Assembly: GCF_015070875.1 (NCBI RefSeq)
Contig: NZ_JADDIV010000002.1
Span: 124,001-188,000 of the forward strand
Reading direction: 5' to 3'
DNA length: 64,000 bases
Source of the DNA: Ramlibacter pallidus
GTDB taxonomy: Bacteria; Pseudomonadota; Gammaproteobacteria; Burkholderiales; Burkholderiaceae_C
Shown: piece after piece, positions 5,496-61,726 of the stretch
Numbering within the stretch: position 1 is the stretch's first letter
Layout of the letters: each line of letters starts with the position of its first letter
Position numbers and translations under genes: made by a program
Notes under the pieces: generated by a model
What the model was told of the DNA's origin: nothing
The model's database searches: none
What the model saw: the letters and a program-made list of their open reading frames with translations, nothing else

Positions 5496-6197
5496 GTGCG
5501 GCGCAGACTGCGATCCGGCTTCTGGCTGGCCCCGCTGCTGGCCGCCGCCGTGGCCTGCACGCCGCGCCCCGTGAGTCCACCGGCACCGCCGCCTGCACCC
5601 CCCGCGCCGGCGCCCTCGGCGCCGGCCGTCCCGTCCGCGCCGGAACCTTCTCCCGTCACGCCCCGCGTGCTGACCGACGACGAGCGCGACGCCGTGCTCT
5701 TCACCCGCTGGCGCAGCGGCCGCGAGGCGGAGGTGGAGGCCTTCGAGGCCTTCCTGGTGTACGAGAAGGTGGCGCGCGTTGCACCGACCTACCAGTTGCT
5801 GCGCAGCGCATCGATGTGGAAGGAATGCCGCGCGGAACCCTTCCAGCTGCCGCCGCCGGAGCTCTGGCCCGAGGTGCGCGACGTGCTGAGCCTGCTGCAG
5901 GAGCTGCACACGCGCGGCGTGCTGCCGGAGTTCGAAGTGGTGTCGGCGTATCGGCCCGCCGGCCTGAACCGTTGTGCCGGCGGCGCGGCGCGCAGTTCGC
6001 ACCTGCGCTTCGCCGTCGACATCGCCCCGCTCGACGCGGCGACCGCGGACCGCCTGTGCCGGTTCTGGCGCGAGGAAGGCGCGGCCTGGAACATGGGTGT
6101 GAGCCGCTATCCCACCGGCCGCATCCACATCGACCGCAACGGCTACCGCACCTGGGGCGCGAGCCACGGCCGGGGCAGCAGCTACTGCCTGCGCTGA
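5496..6197 (+). CDS. Peptidase M15-type (D-Ala-D-Ala carboxypeptidase-like) lipoprotein
   Basis: Probably an envelope zinc peptidase that acts on peptidoglycan. The N-terminus has a hydrophobic signal ending in an AVACT lipobox, then a Pro/Ala linker (residues about 28-55). The C-terminal half carries the M15A pattern: SSHLRFAVDIAP (the SxHxxxxAxD zinc motif) and RIHIDRNGYRTW (second zinc histidine). The GTG start at 5496 follows GGAG and lies 10 bases after the recQ stop. It could instead bind peptidoglycan without cutting, but the metal ligands appear present. Confidence 0.8.
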   Translation: MRRRLRSGFWLAPLLAAAVACTPRPVSPPAPPPAPPAPAPSAPAVPSAPEPSPVTPRVLTDDERDAVLFTRWRSGREAEVEAFEAFLVYEKVARVAPTYQLLRSASMWKECRAEPFQLPPPELWPEVRDVLSLLQELHTRGVLPEFEVVSAYRPAGLNRCAGGAARSSHLRFAVDIAPLDAATADRLCRFWREEGAAWNMGVSRYPTGRIHIDRNGYRTWGASHGRGSSYCLR

Positions 6198-6305: not shown

Positions 6306-6341
6306 TTGCATTCTGTAGCAAGTGTGTCCTAGAGTGACACA
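6306..6341 (+). promoter_or_regulatory. Candidate promoter with overlapping inverted repeat ahead of the redox operon
   Basis: A -35-like TTGCAT (6306-6311) and a -10-like TAGAGT (6330-6335), 18 bases apart, precede the diheme gene start at 6369. An exact 6-bp inverted repeat, TGTGTC (6323-6328) and GACACA (6336-6341) with a 7-base spacer, straddles the -10 box, as expected of a repressor site. The assignment is by eye only. Confidence 0.35.
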
Positions 6342-6368
6342 GATCAAGAATTTGTCACGAGGAGCACC

Positions 6369-7406
6369 ATGACCCACAAGTCACGCATCGCCTTCGGTAT
6401 GGCCGCCGCCGCCCTCCTGGCCGCGGGCTGCGCCACCCTCACCGGCAACGTCCCGGCGCCGACGGCCGCCGACCAGGCCTGGCGCCTGCCGGCCACGTAT
6501 CCGATGCCCGCCGACAACGTCACGACGCCGGCGCGCGTCGAACTCGGCAAGGTCCTGTTCTTCGACCACCGCATCTCCGACAGCGGCGCGATGTCGTGCG
6601 CGTCCTGCCACCTGCCGCACATGCAATGGACCGACGGCCGCAAGCTGCCGATCCTGCCCAACGGCGACGTGCTCCCACGCCATTCCCCCACCATCGTCAA
6701 CATCGCCTACAACACCCAGTTCATGTGGGACGGCCGCAAGAAGTCGCTGGAAGACCAGGCGATCGGGCCGCACCGCCACCTGAGCAAGGCGGCGTTCGCG
6801 GCAGCCGCCCAGCGCGTCGCCGGCATGCGGGAGTACCAGGACCTCTTCGCCGAGGCCTACCCCGGCGAACCGGTGAACGAGGAGACGATCGCCAAGGCGA
6901 TGTCGGTGTTCCAGCGCAGCGTGATCTCCAACGACTCGCCGTTCGACCGCTGGGTCGCCGGCGACACCAGCGCGATCACGCCGCAGCAGTACCGCGGCTA
7001 CAAGGTCTTCCTGGACCCGGCGAAAGGCAACTGCGCCTCGTGCCACAACGGCCCGAATTTCACGGACAACGGTTTCCACAACATCGGCATCAAGACCGCC
7101 GACGGCGCGAAGCCGGACCTCGGCCGCTTCAACATCCGCCAGGTCGCCGCGATGAAGGGCGCGTTCAAGACGCCGACGCTGCGCGACGTCGAGTTCGGGG
7201 CGCCCTACTACCACGACGGCTCGGCCGAAACGCTGCGCGACGTGGTGGACCACTACGCGCGCGGCGGCGACGACCGTTCCAACGTCTCGCCGGAAGTGCG
7301 CAAGCTGGACCTCACCGAGCAGGACAAGGAAGACCTGATCGCCTTCATGCGCGCGCTGTCCGGCCGCCAGTCCGCCTTCGTGCCGCCGAAGTTGCCGCTG
7401 CGATAG
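6369..7406 (+). CDS. Diheme cytochrome c peroxidase / MauG-family lipoprotein
   Basis: Periplasmic diheme protein of the CcpA/MauG superfamily, reducing peroxide or oxidising a partner protein. A lipobox (LLAAGC, Cys21) predicts anchoring to a membrane. Two heme c motifs, CASCH at residues 77-81 and 222-226, are spaced as in the family, and the protein has the family length (345 residues). A GAGGAG ribosome site precedes the ATG. It leads a four-gene operon (next gene 9 bases downstream) with an MCP-like sensor, an amicyanin-like cupredoxin and a monoheme cytochrome. That suggests the copper protein and cytochrome are electron partners. True peroxidase activity versus MauG-like oxidation cannot be decided here. 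Confidence 0.88.
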   Translation: MTHKSRIAFGMAAAALLAAGCATLTGNVPAPTAADQAWRLPATYPMPADNVTTPARVELGKVLFFDHRISDSGAMSCASCHLPHMQWTDGRKLPILPNGDVLPRHSPTIVNIAYNTQFMWDGRKKSLEDQAIGPHRHLSKAAFAAAAQRVAGMREYQDLFAEAYPGEPVNEETIAKAMSVFQRSVISNDSPFDRWVAGDTSAITPQQYRGYKVFLDPAKGNCASCHNGPNFTDNGFHNIGIKTADGAKPDLGRFNIRQVAAMKGAFKTPTLRDVEFGAPYYHDGSAETLRDVVDHYARGGDDRSNVSPEVRKLDLTEQDKEDLIAFMRALSGRQSAFVPPKLPLR

Positions 7407-7415
7407 GAAAGGTGG

Positions 7416-8999
7416 ATGAGCGAACCCGCGGTCCTCGTCGCGCCGCTCGCCGCGCCGCCCCCCTTCACCGGCACCGAACGCCGGGCCGCCGCTTCCCCGC
7501 GGCGGAACACGTCGGGCAGTGCCGTCGCGCAGTGGAAGCGCCAGCTGGCCTGGTTCGCGACGACCGTCACCGGCCTGGTGGTGGTCGTCGCGGTCCTGTC
7601 GGGCCTGGCGATGTGGCACGTCATCCGCGAAGTCGCGCTGGCCGAGGCGACCAACGAGCTGCGCACCCGCGCCGCCGCCGATGCACGCATCGCGGTCGTC
7701 GACGTCGAACGCCATCTTGCGCAGGCGATGGTGGAGGACGACGCGGCCCGCGTGCGCGCCGCGGCCGTCGCCTCGATCGCCGCGGCATCGCGCCTGGAAG
7801 ACGCCGTCACGGCCCTGCGCACCGCGCTGCCGGACGACGGCGGCGTCGTGGAGATGAGCCGCCTGGTCGACGGCGTCAAGGCGCCGCGCGTCAACGTCAT
7901 CGTGCTCGCCCGCAAGGGCCAGCGGCAGGAGGCGGTGTCGGCGCAGCAGGCGATCGCCGAACCGCTCAGGCGCATCGACGCCGTGTCGGCCCGCATCCTG
8001 GAGGAGCAGGTGGCGCAGCGCGCCCGCGCCTCCACCGAGCGCAGCGCCTTGTTCACGCGGATCCTCTACGCCCTGGCCGGCGCCGCGGCGGCGAGCACCG
8101 CGCTGGGCCTGGCGTTCTACCGCCGGCTGATGCGCCGCTTCAGCCCCGTGGAACAGCTGCTGGACGAGGTGGCCCACAGCGCCCGCGAACTCGACACGGG
8201 CGGACGCCAGCTGGACACGCTCAACGCCGACGTCCAGCAGGCGAACCACCGCCTGCGCGTGCTGCTGGAGCGCTTCCAGGGCTCCTCCCAGGCCATGACG
8301 CAGGAAGCCGAGCGCTGCCTGCGCGACGTGGAGCAGATCAGCGACACGTGCAAGTCCTCCGCCGGCATGTCGCGGCTGCACGCGGACGAAGCGTCTTCCG
8401 TGGCGGGCCAGATCCACGCGATGACCGCGCGCCTGCACCAGTTGCTGGAGGCGACGCAGTCCCTGAGCCGCAGCCGCAGCGAGATCACGCGCTTCGCCGA
8501 CCAGATCGACGGCATCGCCTCCACCACCCGGCTGCTGTCGCTGAACGCAGCGGTGGAGGCCGCGCGCGCGGGCACGGCCGGCCGGGGCTTCTCCGTGATC
8601 GCCAATTCGGTGCGGCGGCTGTCCGAGGACACGCAGGAAGCCGCGCTGCAGATCCGGCGCGCCAGCGAAGACATCACGCGCCAGCTGGGCGCGACCACCC
8701 GGGCGGTGCAGGAGACCAGCGCGCTCATGGACCAGGGCGCCGGCCGCATCGCCGCGCTGGACAGCTCCGCGCGCTCCAACCAGGCGCTGCTCGACGGGAT
8801 GCACAACGAGGTGCAGGGCTTCCGCGGCAGCTTCCAGCGCCAGGTCGACCGGGTGCAGGCGATGGACGCCGAATCGGGCGCGCTCGCCGGTGCGCTGGAG
8901 GACGGCCTGCGCCATGCGCGCCTGCTCGACGAGACCGCCGCTTCGCTGACCCACACCTCCACCGCGCTGCTGCAGCGCCTGTCCAACCTCCAGAACTGA
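7416..8999 (+). CDS. MCP-like membrane sensor with diverged signalling tip
   Basis: Two membrane segments (about residues 44-69 and 218-234) flank a periplasmic helical domain of about 145 residues. A cytoplasmic coiled coil of nearly 300 residues follows. Its hairpin tip reads [20 protein letters not shown], where canonical receptors have a Glu in place of that Thr. After it comes SVIANSVRRLS instead of the usual AVVAxEVRxLA. No obvious HAMP domain is seen. This looks like a chemoreceptor relative whose CheA/CheW contact surface has drifted. It sits between the diheme gene and the cupredoxin gene, so it may sense the redox state or substrate of that system. Confidence 0.8.
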   Translation: MSEPAVLVAPLAAPPPFTGTERRAAASPRRNTSGSAVAQWKRQLAWFATTVTGLVVVVAVLSGLAMWHVIREVALAEATNELRTRAAADARIAVVDVERHLAQAMVEDDAARVRAAAVASIAAASRLEDAVTALRTALPDDGGVVEMSRLVDGVKAPRVNVIVLARKGQRQEAVSAQQAIAEPLRRIDAVSARILEEQVAQRARASTERSALFTRILYALAGAAAASTALGLAFYRRLMRRFSPVEQLLDEVAHSARELDTGGRQLDTLNADVQQANHRLRVLLERFQGSSQAMTQEAERCLRDVEQISDTCKSSAGMSRLHADEASSVAGQIHAMTARLHQLLEATQSLSRSRSEITRFADQIDGIASTTRLLSLNAAVEAARAGTAGRGFSVIANSVRRLSEDTQEAALQIRRASEDITRQLGATTRAVQETSALMDQGAGRIAALDSSARSNQALLDGMHNEVQGFRGSFQRQVDRVQAMDAESGALAGALEDGLRHARLLDETAASLTHTSTALLQRLSNLQN

Positions 9000-9022
9000 A
9001 CGGTACTTCCCGGGAGAACACC

Positions 9023-9349
9023 ATGCAGAACATCCGTCCCACCCTCGCCAGCGTGCTCCTGCTCGCCGCCGCCGCCGCGTACGCGCAGGCGGGGGAACAT
9101 GTCGTCAGCCAGAAAGGCAAGGCCTTCTCGACGCAGAAGATGGCCGTGAAGGTCGGCGACAGCGTCAAGTTCGTCAACGATGACCCGTTCGCGCACAACG
9201 TCTTCTCGCTCTCGGACACCAAGAGCTTCGACCTCGGCTCCTACGGCCAGGGCCTCGCCAAGTCCGTGGTCATGGACAAGCCCGGCCTGGTGGACGTCGA
9301 ATGCGCGGTGCACCCGGACATGAAGATGGTGATCGAGGTCCGCAAGTGA
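9023..9349 (+). CDS. Amicyanin-like type 1 copper protein (cupredoxin)
   Basis: A 108-residue secreted blue-copper protein, predicted to carry single electrons in the periplasm. A signal peptide ends near AYAQA (residues 19-23). Copper ligands are visible: His58 in AHNVF, and a ligand loop with Cys94, His97 and Met100. The C-x2-H-x2-M spacing is that of amicyanin. A GGGAG ribosome site precedes the ATG. The gene lies 23 bases after the MCP-like gene, and its stop overlaps the start of the next cytochrome gene. Amicyanin normally serves methylamine dehydrogenase, but no mau dehydrogenase subunit is in this window. Confidence 0.85.
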   Translation: MQNIRPTLASVLLLAAAAAYAQAGEHVVSQKGKAFSTQKMAVKVGDSVKFVNDDPFAHNVFSLSDTKSFDLGSYGQGLAKSVVMDKPGLVDVECAVHPDMKMVIEVRK

Positions 9350-9756
9350 ACCTGCGCCTGCTGGCGGCCCTGGCGTTCTCGTGCCTGGGCGCCTCCGCGC
9401 AGGCGCAGCTGAGCGGCGCGTATGCGCAGGTGGTCTCGGCCACGGCCAAGCCCCTGCTGGCACGCGATGGCCCCGACGCCGCGGTCTTCCGCGGCAGCCT
9501 GGTGTTCTTCAACTACTGCGTCACCTGCCACGGCCCGAATGCCGACGGCGCCGGCCGCGCGGCCCGGCTGTACGACCCGAAGCCGGCCAACCTGCGGGCG
9601 AGCGAGAAGAACGCGCAGTACCTGCAGCAGATCATCCGCCGCGGCGGCAAGGCCATGGCGCGTTCCGAGTACATGCCACCGTGGGGCGAGGAACTCACCG
9701 ACGAGCAGATCGCCGACGTGACCACCTACCTGGTCTCGCTGCGCGAACAGCGCTGA
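9346..9756 (+). CDS. Monoheme cytochrome c
   Basis: A 136-residue periplasmic c-type cytochrome. An N-terminal signal peptide (cleavage near AQAQ) is followed by one CVTCH heme site at residues 58-62. A likely axial methionine lies in YMPPWGEELTDEQIADV, the normal class I ending. The GTG start overlaps the cupredoxin stop (GTGA), indicating translational coupling. It is the last gene of the four-gene redox operon and likely accepts electrons from, or gives them to, the cupredoxin or diheme protein. Confidence 0.88.
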   Translation: MNLRLLAALAFSCLGASAQAQLSGAYAQVVSATAKPLLARDGPDAAVFRGSLVFFNYCVTCHGPNADGAGRAARLYDPKPANLRASEKNAQYLQQIIRRGGKAMARSEYMPPWGEELTDEQIADVTTYLVSLREQR

Positions 9757-9784: not shown

Positions 9785-10285
9785 TCAGTTGTTGAAGTGG
9801 ATTTCCTTGTGCTCGCCCATCTTGGGCCGGTTGCCGGTGACGGCGGCCGTGCCCATCTTCAGCAGCTGCAGCAGCTTGTTTTCCTTGACGTTCCAGAATT
9901 CCGCTTCCTCGATGCGGACGCCGACCAGTTCCAGGTTCGGGTCTTCCGGGCCGTCGAACCAGGCCTTGGCGATCGGGTTGAACAGGTCCTTCTTCTTCTG
10001 CAGGTCCTCGATCACGCTCGCGGTGCCCGTGATCGACACCCAGGTGTCGTCCTTGACGTTGGCGAAGGAGAGGTTGACGTTGCCGTCCTGCCGCAGCCGC
10101 TGGCCCACTTCGGTGGTGCGGCTGACGAAGAACCAGACCATGTCGCCTTCGTCCAGCGCCTTGTTCTGCATGGTCAGCGGATGCGAGTGGAGCGAGCCGT
10201 CGGCATGCCGGTGCGACAGCATGCAGAAGCGGGTGTCCTTGATCAGGTCCCAGAGGACCTCGTGGTTGTGCTTGGTTTCGTTCAT
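9785..10285 (-). CDS. Pyridoxamine 5'-phosphate oxidase-fold (general stress protein 26-like) protein
   Basis: A 166-residue flavin-binding split-barrel protein. It has the family order: an N-terminal helix (NHEVLWDLIKDTRFCMLSHR), HSHPLTMQNKALDEGDMVWFFV, then VNLSFANVKDDTWVSITGTASV. The C-terminal EAEFWNVKENKLLQLLKM ending is typical of the stress-protein branch. The ATG at 10285 has GGAG upstream; the longer frame to 10480 is arginine-rich and unlikely. It is convergent with the cytochrome gene. The family binds FMN or F420, and substrate and role are uncertain. Confidence 0.88.
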   Translation of the reverse strand: MNETKHNHEVLWDLIKDTRFCMLSHRHADGSLHSHPLTMQNKALDEGDMVWFFVSRTTEVGQRLRQDGNVNLSFANVKDDTWVSITGTASVIEDLQKKKDLFNPIAKAWFDGPEDPNLELVGVRIEEAEFWNVKENKLLQLLKMGTAAVTGNRPKMGEHKEIHFNN

Positions 10286-10478
10286 CGGGGCTCCTTTGTC
10301 ACATGACATGTTGCGGCGCCCACGGCCGCGCCACCGTCGGGGGCGGCGTGGTCCGCGTGTACGCCCGCGACTACACGATGGCGCCCCGACGGATCGCCTG
10401 CAGGGCCGCCGCCGAGGGGACGACCCGGTTTGGCGCGCCGCGACCGCGGCCGCATACTGCGCGCTTCCAGGAGCACGC

Positions 10479-11300
10479 ATGACAGAACCCCAGGTGACGT
10501 CGGCCTACGCATCGCCGACCGGACGCGTGCAGGCGTGGACCGAGGCGTCCACCCTGCACATCCGCTTCGACCACCCGGCGCGGCACAACGCGCTGTCGGT
10601 CGACATGTGGCAGGCGATCCCGCCGCTGCTGGCGCAGGCCGAGCGCGACGATGCGATCCGCCTCGTCGTCTTCTCCGGCGCCGGCGAGACGGCTTTCGCC
10701 TCCGGTGCCGACATCTCGCAGTTCGAGGACATGCGCGCCGCCCGAGAGGCCGTGGCGCACTACGAGACGATCGCCGAGGACGCCCTGGCAGCCATCTACC
10801 GCTGCGCCAAGCCGACGCTCGCCTGCATCCGCGGCTACTGCATCGGCGGCGGCTTGAACGTCGCGATCAGCTGCGACATCCGCATTGCCGCCGACGATGC
10901 CGCGTTCGCCATCCCGGCGGCGCGGCTCGGCCTGGGCTATCGCCTGTCGGCCCTGAAGAACCTGGTGCACCTGGTCGGCGTGGGCGTGGCCAAGGACCTG
11001 TTCTTCACCGGCCGCCGCATCGGCGCGCAGGAGGCGAAGGAAGTGGGGCTGGTTTCGCGGGCGTGCCCCGCCGCCGACCTGCCGGCGCTGCTGGGCGAGT
11101 ACACGCTCGCGATGTCCGAGAATGCACCGCTCACGGTCCACGCGGGCAAGCGCATCCTGCAGGAACTCCTGAAGGACGATGCCGGCCTGGACCGCACGTT
11201 GTGCCAGCAGCTCATCCGCCAATGCTTCGACAGCGAAGACTACGCCGAGGGCCGCCGCGCCTTCATGGAAAAACGCAAGCCGGTGTTCCGGGGGAAATGA
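10479..11300 (+). CDS. Crotonase-fold (enoyl-CoA hydratase/isomerase family) protein
   Basis: A 273-residue member of the crotonase superfamily. The oxyanion-hole segments are FASGADISQFEDM and CIGGGLNVAISCDIRIAADDAAF. The two glutamates of true enoyl-CoA hydratases are absent: the GGG segment continues LNVA rather than CELA, and the second site reads FAIPAARLGLGY. It may therefore be an isomerase, decarboxylase or other crotonase-fold enzyme. The ATG at 10479 follows CAGGAG. The stop is one base from the next gene, so it is co-transcribed with the MDR and HAD genes. Confidence 0.85.
   Translation: MTEPQVTSAYASPTGRVQAWTEASTLHIRFDHPARHNALSVDMWQAIPPLLAQAERDDAIRLVVFSGAGETAFASGADISQFEDMRAAREAVAHYETIAEDALAAIYRCAKPTLACIRGYCIGGGLNVAISCDIRIAADDAAFAIPAARLGLGYRLSALKNLVHLVGVGVAKDLFFTGRRIGAQEAKEVGLVSRACPAADLPALLGEYTLAMSENAPLTVHAGKRILQELLKDDAGLDRTLCQQLIRQCFDSEDYAEGRRAFMEKRKPVFRGK

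Positions 11301-12904: not shown

Positions 12905-12918
<14 letters not shown>
12283..12918 (+). CDS. HAD-superfamily phosphatase, YihX-like
   Basis: A 211-residue haloacid-dehalogenase hydrolase. The nucleophile motif reads FDLGGVVLDIDF, very like YihX (alpha-glucose-1-phosphatase), which has FDLGNVIVDIDF. Further shared blocks are SNTNAVHL, the lysine block GHRKPHPESF and the acidic loop FDDLRANVDGA. The cap region is small. It is the third gene of the crotonase-MDR-HAD run, and its 3' end overlaps the end of the opposite-strand histidine kinase gene by 14 bases. A sugar-phosphate substrate is an inference from YihX. Confidence 0.85.
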
Positions 12919-15682
<2,764 letters not shown>

Positions 15683-15690
15683 GCGCAACT

Positions 15691-16599
15691 CTACCGCGCG
15701 AGCGTCGAGGCGCCAAACAGGCTCTGGATGAAGTCCACGGCCAGTTCCGCCGTGCGGTTGCGAACGTCCAGCGCCGGATTGATCTCCACCACGTCGAGCG
15801 ACCGGAGCCGGCCGGTGTCCGCCACCATTTCCATGCAAAGCTGCATCTCGCGGTAGGTGGGCCCGCCGCGCACCCCGGTGCCCACGCCGGGCGCGTCCAG
15901 CGGGTCCAGGCAATCCAGGTCGAAGCTCACGTGGATGTGCGTGTCCTCGTCGACGTCCTGCAGCACCTCGGTCATGGTGTTGCGCATGCCGTGCTCGTCG
16001 ATGTGTCGCATGTCGAAGACCTGCAGGCCGAGCGCGCGGATCGCCTGCTTCTCGTCGGCGTCGACGCTGCGGATGCCGATGAAGTCGATCTCGCCCGGCT
16101 GCAGCGCGGCGCGTTCACCGCTCCAGCCCACCAGGTCCGGCGGACCGTGCCCGAGCAGGCAGGCGACCGGCATGCCGTGGAGGTTGCCGCTGGGGCTGAT
16201 GGCTTCCGTGTTCACGTCGGTGTGCGCGTCGAGCCAGACCACGCGCAGGTTCCTGCGGTGCTGGCGGCAGTGGCGCGCCACGGCGCTGATCGAGCCGATC
16301 GCGAGGCAATGGTCGCCGCCCATGAGCAGCGGCACGTGCTCCATCGCGAGGGCGGTGGAGACCGCCTCGAACACCGAGCGGTTCCACGCGACGACTTCGG
16401 GCAGGTGCCGCATGCCGTTCACCGGCGCGCGCCAGGGGTTCGGCGGCCCCGCGAGGTTGCCGCGATCGATGACATCGAAGCGGTGCGCGCGCAGCGCCTC
16501 GCCGATGCCGGCGACGCGCAAGGCGTCCGGCCCCATCCCGGCGCCGCGCACGCTGGCCCCGACGTCCGTCGGGGCACCGATGAGGCTCACTGTCGTCAT
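15691..16599 (-). CDS. rocF: Arginase
   Basis: Hydrolyses L-arginine to ornithine and urea using two Mn ions. Ureohydrolase metal ligands are visible: His97 (GGDHC), Asp124, His126 and Asp128 (DAHTD), Asp227 and Asp229 (SFDLDCLDP). The 302-residue length and SPSGNLHGMP substrate loop (residues about 135-143) fit arginase rather than agmatinase. The ATG at 16599 has GGAG 11 bases upstream. The hybrid kinase follows 8 bases downstream on the same strand, and a zinc dehydrogenase is divergent. Confidence 0.93.
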   Translation of the reverse strand: MTTVSLIGAPTDVGASVRGAGMGPDALRVAGIGEALRAHRFDVIDRGNLAGPPNPWRAPVNGMRHLPEVVAWNRSVFEAVSTALAMEHVPLLMGGDHCLAIGSISAVARHCRQHRRNLRVVWLDAHTDVNTEAISPSGNLHGMPVACLLGHGPPDLVGWSGERAALQPGEIDFIGIRSVDADEKQAIRALGLQVFDMRHIDEHGMRNTMTEVLQDVDEDTHIHVSFDLDCLDPLDAPGVGTGVRGGPTYREMQLCMEMVADTGRLRSLDVVEINPALDVRNRTAELAVDFIQSLFGASTLAR

Positions 16600-60478: not shown

Positions 60479-61726
60479 TCACGACAGCTTAGGAAGGGGC
60501 CGGGAGACGCCGAGTGCGACGACGGCGGGACCGTTTGTAGGAGCGGCGCCGGCAGGGCCGGCATCGCGCGCTGGCGCCGCAACCGCCTCGAATGCGTCCT
60601 CCAGGCGGAATCGCGACACCAGCCGGAACAGCATGGCCGCATCGTCCTTCATGGATTCCGTCGCGGCCGCCGCCTCCTCCACCAGCGATGCGTTCTGCTG
60701 CACCACCTGTTCCATCTGCGTGATCGCGCCGTTCACCTGGCCGATGCCGGCGCTCTGTTCCTGGCACGCCTGCGCGATCTCCGCCACCAGCCCGCTGACC
60801 TTCTCCACCGAGACGACGATCTCGCGCATCGTCTCGCCCGCGCCCTGCACGAGCCGCGCGCCGGCTTCCACGCGCCCCGTGGACTCCGCGATCAGCGCGC
60901 GGATCTCGCGCGCCGCCGTGGCGCTGCGCTGCGCCAGGGCGCGCACCTCGCCGGCGACCACCGCGAAGCCGCGGCCCTGGTCGCCGGCCCGTGCCGCTTC
61001 GACGGCGGCATTGAGCGCCAGGATGTTGGTCTGGAAGGCGATGCCGTCGATGACGCCGATGATGTCCTCGATGCGCCGCGAGGCCGCCGAGATGCCGGCC
61101 ATCGTGGAAACCACCTGTTCCACGGCTTCGCCGCCCTTGTGCGCGACGCGCGACGCGCCCGCGGCCAGGCGGCTGGCCTCGCGCGCGTTGTCCGCATTGC
61201 TGGCGACGGTGGACGTGAGCTCCTCCATCGAGCTCGCCGTCTCCTCCAGCGTGGTCGCCTGTTCCTCGGTGCGCTGCGACAGGTCCAGGTTGCCGTGCGA
61301 GATCTGGGCGCTGAAGTCGGTCACGCGGCGAGCCACCGCCTGCACCTCGCCCACCAGCGCGCGCAGGTCGCCGCCCATGCGGTCCAGGCCTTCCAGCATC
61401 TTCTGCATGCCGCCCGAACCCCGCGCGTCCACGCGCGCGGTCAGGTCACCGGCCGCGACCTTGTCGATGAAGTTCGACGCGGCCCGCAGCGAACGCAGGA
61501 TGCCTTCGCGGACGGACAGGCGCAGCCAGACGGCGAGGGCCGCGACGACGACGAAGGCCGATGCGAACAGCGCCAGCATGCCCGCGGCGGGGTCCGCGGC
61601 GCCGGCCGGCGGCGCGCAGGCCGCGGCGTGCGACGCGGCCTGCAGCGACCAGGCCGAGACGCCCAGGACGATGGGGATGGCCAGCGTCAGCACGAGCCAT
61701 GCGTTGAGTTTCTGGATGACGGTCAA
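60479..61726 (-). CDS. Methyl-accepting chemotaxis protein with minimal periplasmic domain
   Basis: A 415-residue receptor. Two membrane segments (about 9-27 and 50-70) enclose only about 20 periplasmic residues. HAMP follows, then a full signalling domain with the canonical tip [34 protein letters not shown]. Without a ligand domain it may sense membrane state or work through partners. The TTG at 61726 has GGAGG six bases upstream and is preferred over the earlier ATG. Confidence 0.9.

Follow-up and report, generated by a model that had tools for sequence, protein, structure and literature searches.

The window analyzed here is a 64,000-nucleotide stretch of Ramlibacter pallidus DNA (contig NZ_JADDIV010000002.1, positions 124,001 to 188,000), and our subject within it is a run of four genes encoding a diheme c protein of the cytochrome c peroxidase (CCP)/MauG superfamily, a membrane receptor-like protein, a small secreted cupredoxin, and a monoheme cytochrome c. 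We found that this cassette is a real conserved group whose gene order recurs far beyond chance, and that the sensor domain of the receptor is dedicated to the cassette yet not obligatory. Our preferred reading, to which we give an even chance, is that the four genes represent a conserved proteobacterial operon cassette for periplasmic oxidant handling with a dedicated sensor, and that this cassette has been altered in the lineage of the window.

Results

Distribution of the cassette and its sensor

A genome scan with three cupredoxin queries yielded 39 loci, 33 of which contained a match to the diheme protein by tblastn. Clustering of open reading frames revealed several arrangements, with the receptor between the other genes, upstream, divergent, or downstream. 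Separately, we searched 369 genomes of the same class with an alignment of the cupredoxin and with an alignment of the sensor (G and L numbers below denote sampled genomes and loci, G000 being the genome of the window). The sensor search scored at most the nine best first-look candidates per genome (for G000, the best 9 of 37). At an E value of 1e-8 or better, the sensor domain was present in 23 of the 369 genomes, one copy each, and all scored at least 86 bits. At a looser threshold the next match was at 22.9 bits with nothing in between, and given this empty range the sharply separate sensor looks like a discrete family. Of these 23 sensors, 22 lie within ∼4 kb of a cupredoxin, and the diheme gene and the cytochrome were found there too, both in the regions that we fetched and, for G000, in the window itself. 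The sensor adjoins the cassette in several gene orders and orientations. Since G000, G360, and G460 were part of the query alignment, the independent figure is 19 of 20 sensors at the cassette.

When named and sampled loci were pooled and the core was defined as a cupredoxin and a diheme gene within 2.6 kb, we obtained 64 non-redundant core loci. The cytochrome is present in 57 of them, a dedicated sensor (a relative of the sensor domain in the window) in 34, and any chemoreceptor signaling domain within 7 kb in 48. For comparison, the host genome (4.31 Mb in six contigs) has 13 signaling domains, from which we estimate that ∼0.04 would be expected in 14 kb, a density that differs between genomes. 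The count started from 78 loci. L118 was left out because it has no cupredoxin, and so were L043, L085, and L086, which an identical 140-base stretch showed to repeat L040, L057, and L053 (L043 comes from another Rhizobacter strain); L002 and L003, which match L041 and L040, were not entered. Among the remaining 74 loci, a match to the diheme protein within 2.6 kb was lacking in 10. Two of these, L031 (at a contig end) and L037, do have the sensor, and the other eight (L066-L069, L094, L116, L117, and L121) have a cupredoxin but no receptor in reach. An earlier note on this DNA had suggested a self-contained electron-transfer module in the periplasm, and a redox module of this kind that does without mau genes is well supported.

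In 11 loci that lack the dedicated sensor, a larger receptor of another type stands beside the cassette, divergent or downstream. These loci come from Rhizobacter, Piscinibacter, Rubrivivax, Sapientia, and other relatives, and the signaling tips that we saw were of the standard kind. This repeated recruitment of receptors suggests a working tie between the chemistry of the cassette and chemosensory signaling. Proteins of the second receptor type are ∼650 to 720 residues long, for instance in L040 (3548-5722, minus strand) and L050 (7704-9650, plus strand), and the N-terminal part had no Pfam match in the two that were scanned.

The diheme protein and the change in its pocket

Each cassette protein scored above the cut-off of a Pfam family (CCP_MauG 170 bits, MCPsignal 88 bits, Copper-bind 31 bits, and Cytochrome_CBB3 49 bits), and none passed as an equivalog in NCBIfam, where the MauG, MbnH, and amicyanin models all remained below cut-off. 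Two CASCH heme sites (C77-C80-H81 and C222-C225-H226) are present in the diheme protein, along with a lipobox-like LAAGC. In both alignment and fold it goes with MauG, MbnH, and the bacterial diheme peroxidases (AlphaFold model, mean predicted local distance difference test score (pLDDT) 82.8), and its structural match to MbnH (6e1c) has a Z of 30.9 and a root-mean-square deviation of 2.8 with 303 residues aligned. With MauG it shares the diheme CCP_MauG fold, both CxxCH sites, and, by alignment, an axial Tyr for heme 2 and the inter-heme Trp. It differs from MauG in falling well short of the TTQ_mauG model (TIGR03791; 283.2 bits versus a cut-off of 443.85), in having no detectable methylamine dehydrogenase light chain as a companion, and, within the subclade of the window, in the replacement of the distal Glu. 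MbnH is likewise a diheme relative of MauG with a link to copper biology, but the score against its model (TIGR04039) is 226.3 bits versus a cut-off of 362.85, and the present protein is accompanied by a cupredoxin, a cytochrome, and a receptor.

In the alignment, Tyr296 falls on the axial ligand position of heme 2, where classical peroxidases have Met, and 65 of 66 aligned rows have Tyr there. Our residue counts were made over 68 rows, including the duplicates L003, L085, and L086, with gapped rows set aside. According to a published report, this axial Tyr is conserved in MauGs and is replaced by Met or His in CCPs (PMC7567364). Trp120, Gln130, and Pro134 are kept, with a spacing like that of Trp98, Gln108, and Pro112 in the diheme peroxidase of Neisseria gonorrhoeae, with which the window protein also shares the fold and a plausible cupredoxin donor. 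LAz of Neisseria is an azurin-type cupredoxin. For the Neisseria enzyme (Gln108/Pro112/Glu118), a published study describes the Gln and Glu variants as inactive and names the small redox protein LAz as the donor (PMC10094543). The window protein differs from such peroxidases in having Tyr for Met or His at heme 2 and in the pocket, where Gln130 is kept and Lys replaces the catalytic Glu.

This replacement is restricted to one subclade. Of 65 aligned rows, 61 have Glu at the position of the distal catalytic residue (Lys140 in the window), and the four exceptions (the window, L033, L034, and L039) have Lys or Val within the common motif GPHRHLS[KV]. In the window this motif is GPHRHLSK (residues 133-140) and contains a new HRH; in L033, His additionally takes the place of Gln130. 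The four sequences form one clade with 100/99 support, so that the pocket change has a single origin. The tree was built without L061, L064, L038, L085, L086, and L003, which are truncated, broken, or duplicate, and in it the nearest relatives of the window protein are those of L034 (a Comamonadaceae bacterium) and L039 (Ramlibacter cellulosilyticus). A further His, His84 (LPHxxW), adjoins heme 1 in the window, L034, and L039, inside the Glu-less subclade. The diheme gene is under purifying selection relative to L033, L034, L039, and L036, with ratios of nonsynonymous to synonymous substitution rates (dN/dS) of 0.30 to 0.56; across the four cassette genes the range is 0.18 to 0.56. With its Glu lost, the window protein is unlikely to carry out ordinary peroxide cleavage, though it has been kept. 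From its sequence, it is probably no fast peroxidase now, but rather a partner in electron transfer or oxidant sensing. Peroxide, one of the signals that the earlier note thought might be reported, is a fair guess for the family; in the window member, the absence of this Glu counts against an ordinary peroxidase activity.

These results bear on a rival explanation, in which the redox genes make up an ordinary operon for a cytochrome c peroxidase and its electron donors, with the receptor as a passenger that is not functionally tied to them. The CCP-like fold and profile are what this would predict, and many loci indeed have no receptor or a receptor of another type. We nevertheless consider it unlikely, since 22 of the 23 sensors adjoin the cassette, in varied orders and orientations, the axial ligand position has Tyr for Met, and the Glu is lost in the window.

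The receptor

The receptor scored 88.4 bits against MCPsignal (cut-off 34.6), the lowest score among the 13 signaling domains of the host genome. Its structural model (mean pLDDT 83.3, predicted template modeling score 0.37) has helices at residues 33-106, 110-137, 142-166, and 170-240, which we interpret as a periplasmic bundle of four helices flanked by two membrane helices, and a short linker (241-245) followed by one long signaling segment. In these features the protein resembles chemoreceptors with a four-helix sensor (4HB_MCP_1, HAMP, and MCPsignal), which also have a periplasmic bundle between membrane helices and a long signaling hairpin. The sensor domains of the beta and gamma forms are related along their length, and the two forms differ in what follows. 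No HAMP match was found in the window receptor or in its nine beta relatives (10 beta sensors scanned), a domain common but not universal in such receptors, whereas 15 of the 25 alignment rows matched HAMP, a number equal to that of the gamma rows; L086, one of the gamma rows, was confirmed singly. The tip reads xTR[LI]LS in 10 of 10 beta rows (STTRLLS in the window) and QTNLLA in 15 of 15 gamma rows. The label gamma rests on matches to named gammaproteobacterial contigs for 2 of the 15 rows and, for the other 13, on their being genomes of the class outside the order of the window. Gamma relatives keep HAMP and a standard tip, as ordinary chemoreceptors do, and the beta forms have neither. A further difference from ordinary chemoreceptors is that the sensor domain is tied to one cassette. 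The changed signaling tip of a chemoreceptor relative, which had been noticed before, is borne out by comparison of STTRLLS with the standard tips of receptors in related loci.

Four CheW domains occur in the host genome, and two of these belong to long reading frames (866 and 2060 residues). This suggests proteins of the CheA type, and standard signaling partners would therefore exist in the host. Judging from its tip and missing HAMP, the window receptor probably signals to a non-standard partner. Searched against solved structures by sequence, the sensor gave one chance-level match. A fold search returned chemoreceptor coils first and then weak matches with E values of 0.08 or worse, which include four-helix sensor domains, among them 4k0d and the ligand-binding domain of MCP2201. 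Binding of heme or metal by the sensor was rejected because no Cys or His is common to the beta and gamma forms; one shared Trp column holds for the beta forms only.

The sensor sequences also weaken the idea of a copper-sensing or copper homeostasis module, in which the cupredoxin would store or report copper and the receptor would sense it. A copper protein in the operon, the precedent of MbnH, and the extra His in the diheme pocket loop of the window would all suit such a role. We think it very unlikely, however, as the sensor domain has no invariant or near-invariant Cys, His, or Met, and no copper gene occurs among the few neighbors that could be named, a weak point in that most neighbors lacked identification.

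With catalytic Glu, HAMP, and standard tip all lost, the diheme protein and receptor of the window subclade could instead be a decaying copy that is losing its function, and in one locus, L038 (Ramlibacter terrae H242), the diheme and sensor genes both appear frameshifted, through decay or sequencing error. Of the explanations that we weighed, this is the least probable. The dN/dS values (0.30 to 0.56 for the diheme gene and 0.33 to 0.45 for the receptor gene) indicate continued purifying selection, the heme sites, Tyr296, and Trp120 are intact, and the changes are shared across species.

The cupredoxin, the cytochrome, and partner genes

The copper ligands of the cupredoxin are H58 and C94-x2-H97-x2-M100, and the Cx2Hx2M loop is present in 26 of 26 aligned cupredoxins. 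These are the ligands of amicyanin, from which the cupredoxin differs in its score against the amicyanin model (TIGR02657; 28.2 bits versus a cut-off of 110.2) and in the want of a detectable mau light chain. The ligand set, the two CASCH sites, and the lipobox were all listed in the earlier note and are all present in the translations. In L055, an extra partial match to the C-terminal part of the cupredoxin (5695-5811, plus strand) lies just upstream of the diheme gene.

None of the 26 cupredoxins contains a Trp, and none is shared by the beta and gamma sensors. This matters for another explanation, in which the diheme protein would be a protein-modifying enzyme of the MauG/MbnH type that oxidizes a residue of a partner encoded in the operon. 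The axial Tyr and Trp120 (by alignment) would fit such an enzyme, as would the best NCBIfam matches, TTQ_mauG and MbnH, and the fold match to 6e1c. Both equivalog cut-offs were missed, however, and neither the Trp-less cupredoxins nor the sensors offer an obvious target. In MauG, moreover, the distal Glu is reportedly tied to O-O cleavage and bis-Fe(IV) chemistry, and this Glu is lost in the window. The cytochrome does have a common Trp, in a PPW found in 29 of 35 sequences, and so remains a candidate target of residue oxidation. We rank this explanation below that of an ordinary peroxidase operon and regard it, too, as improbable.

A methylamine role was rejected. The methylamine dehydrogenase light chain (PF02975) was not found in the host genome, the same search was positive in 12 of the 369 class genomes, and those 12 include no genome from the set of 22 that have both sensor and cassette. 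The absence of methylamine dehydrogenase from the window, remarked upon earlier, thus extends to the genome as far as PF02975 detects it, and the gene order is conserved without mau genes. In G461, the light chain lies on contig C25, and a separate contig (L119) has a weak cupredoxin match adjoining a diheme gene, without the dedicated sensor.

MsrP and MsrQ (formerly YedY and YedZ) repair oxidized methionines. An MsrP-type gene lies within 5 kb in 9 of the 64 core loci, in three arrangements, and seven of these nine also have MsrQ; in the two without a visible MsrQ, the contigs end there. We assigned these genes by Pfam (Oxidored_molyb and Ferric_reduct) for the pair in L058 and the others by similarity to that pair and by reading of the sequence. 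In Escherichia coli, MsrP restores a copper chaperone oxidized by H2O2, according to a published study (PMC9302797).

Organization of the locus

The four genes lie on one strand, with intergenic gaps of 9 and 23 bases and an overlap of 4 bases between the GTG start of the cytochrome and the stop of the cupredoxin, in agreement with the layout first described (Table 1). By eye, a promoter-like sequence is also found upstream in L034, L036, L039, and L033; L038 could not be aligned. The inverted repeat downstream of the candidate promoter is a possible operator, going by its sequence. The idea that it is a conserved operator was dropped, as a pattern search matched none of 16 relatives.

Table 1. 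Coordinates of the cassette genes and candidate control elements in the window
Feature	Position	Strand	Remarks
Diheme c protein, CCP/MauG superfamily	6369..7406	+	first cassette gene; lipobox-like signal peptide
Membrane receptor-like protein	7416..8999	+	four-helix periplasmic sensor (from model), signaling hairpin, tip STTRLLS
Small secreted cupredoxin	9023..9349	+	ligands His58, Cys94, His97, Met100
Monoheme cytochrome c (CVTCH)	9346..9756	+	GTG start
Candidate promoter TTGCAT-18-TAGAGT	6306..6335	+	5′ of diheme gene; weak evidence
Inverted repeat GTGACA-13-TGTCAC	6334..6358		between candidate promoter and diheme start codon

The cassette is flanked by an M15-peptidase-like gene upstream (5496-6197, plus strand) and a pyridoxamine-oxidase-like gene downstream (9785-10480, minus strand). 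Both flank the cassette again in several Ramlibacter-type loci, which probably reflects a common chromosomal context. Farther off, a large hybrid histidine kinase (GAF, PAS, HisKA, HATPase, receiver, and Hpt domains) lies ∼3 kb downstream (12905-15913, minus strand). One chemoreceptor gene occupies positions 1-1228 of the window (minus strand), starting at 1228, ∼5 kb upstream of the cassette, and another lies at ∼60701-61171 (minus strand); the signaling domains of the two are at G000:C2:123657-124127 and G000:C2:184701-185171.

Discussion

All parts of the cassette come from known superfamilies, and each fails at least one tested feature of MauG, MbnH, CCP, amicyanin, or the standard chemoreceptor. 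A description of the cassette was not found in the titles and the beginnings of abstracts of open-licence articles in PubMed Central, a coverage outside which most subscription journals lie.

From the families to which the proteins belong, we infer a scheme of electron flow, substrate, signaling partner, and function overall. Electrons from the respiratory chain would pass through the cupredoxin and the cytochrome c to the MauG/MbnH-type diheme protein. In most relatives this protein would react with peroxide, and some relatives add MsrP and MsrQ for the repair of oxidized methionine. The four-helix membrane sensor would pass information on a ligand or on the redox state of the cassette to the cytoplasm. 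In the gamma relatives that we examined, taxis or a chemosensory array would be the output, through a normal HAMP and standard tip. Receptors of the beta line have no HAMP any more and an altered tip, and in the subclade of the window the Glu that splits peroxide has gone from the diheme protein while His residues have appeared in that pocket loop. Catalysis and signaling both look rewired in this subclade, in keeping with a change of role from detoxification to sensing or with a different substrate. A more specific version is that, in the window lineage, a cassette of peroxidase and receptor has become a redox receptor complex. The diheme protein, lacking its Glu and with a new His-rich pocket loop, would be a sensory and not a catalytic subunit, the dedicated four-helix receptor would read its redox or ligand state by way of the cupredoxin or cytochrome, and the output, which uses neither HAMP nor a tip of standard sequence, would be of an undescribed kind. 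We put this forward tentatively, as an unlikely possibility that we still place ahead of the rival explanations above.

Several observations weigh against a cassette for oxidant handling with a dedicated sensor. The dedicated sensor is not present in 30 of the 64 core loci, partly through contig ends, and 16 have no chemoreceptor within 7 kb. Flanks of 5 kb or more on each side are available for 45 loci, which include 10 of these 16, and sensing is thus not essential. One of the 10, the close relative L036, has the diheme protein, cupredoxin, and cytochrome but no receptor in 14 kb. The membrane sensor that the earlier note ascribed to the module therefore stands beside the cassette in 22 of 23 sensor genomes but is missing from homologous loci, which that note had named as grounds for refutation. 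In the opposite direction, the G443 sensor (L118, 6545-8191, minus strand) is the only sampled copy for which no cupredoxin or diheme gene was found, although it lies <1 kb from a contig end and its surroundings are visible on one side only. Further weak copies of the sensor are possible, since at most nine candidates per genome were scored. A strict unit is also contradicted by L037 (608-3941), which has sensor, cupredoxin, and cytochrome and lacks the diheme gene at its usual place, the gap lying between the sensor and the neighbor that in L041 and L046 stands ahead of the diheme gene. Among the 149 other genomes that belong to the family, only 2 contained close orthologs of the cupredoxin (72-74% identical), and the next-best matches had 42% identity or less. 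MsrP is near only the minority of core loci noted above, and the host has its MsrP/MsrQ-like pair on another contig. Lastly, the diheme protein of the window has lost its Glu, which makes peroxide a less likely substrate for it.

Sensor domains of chemoreceptors rarely reveal their stimulus. Here, because one sensor domain is bound by neighborhood to one redox cassette (22 of 23 genomes), the stimulus becomes directly testable, and the candidates are the reduced or oxidized cupredoxin or cytochrome, peroxide, or a product. The MsrP/MsrQ neighbors in some relatives point to periplasmic oxidation as a common theme, and the natural series of intact and altered forms, with and without HAMP and with and without Glu, provides ready controls for studying how a peroxidase and a receptor may be repurposed.

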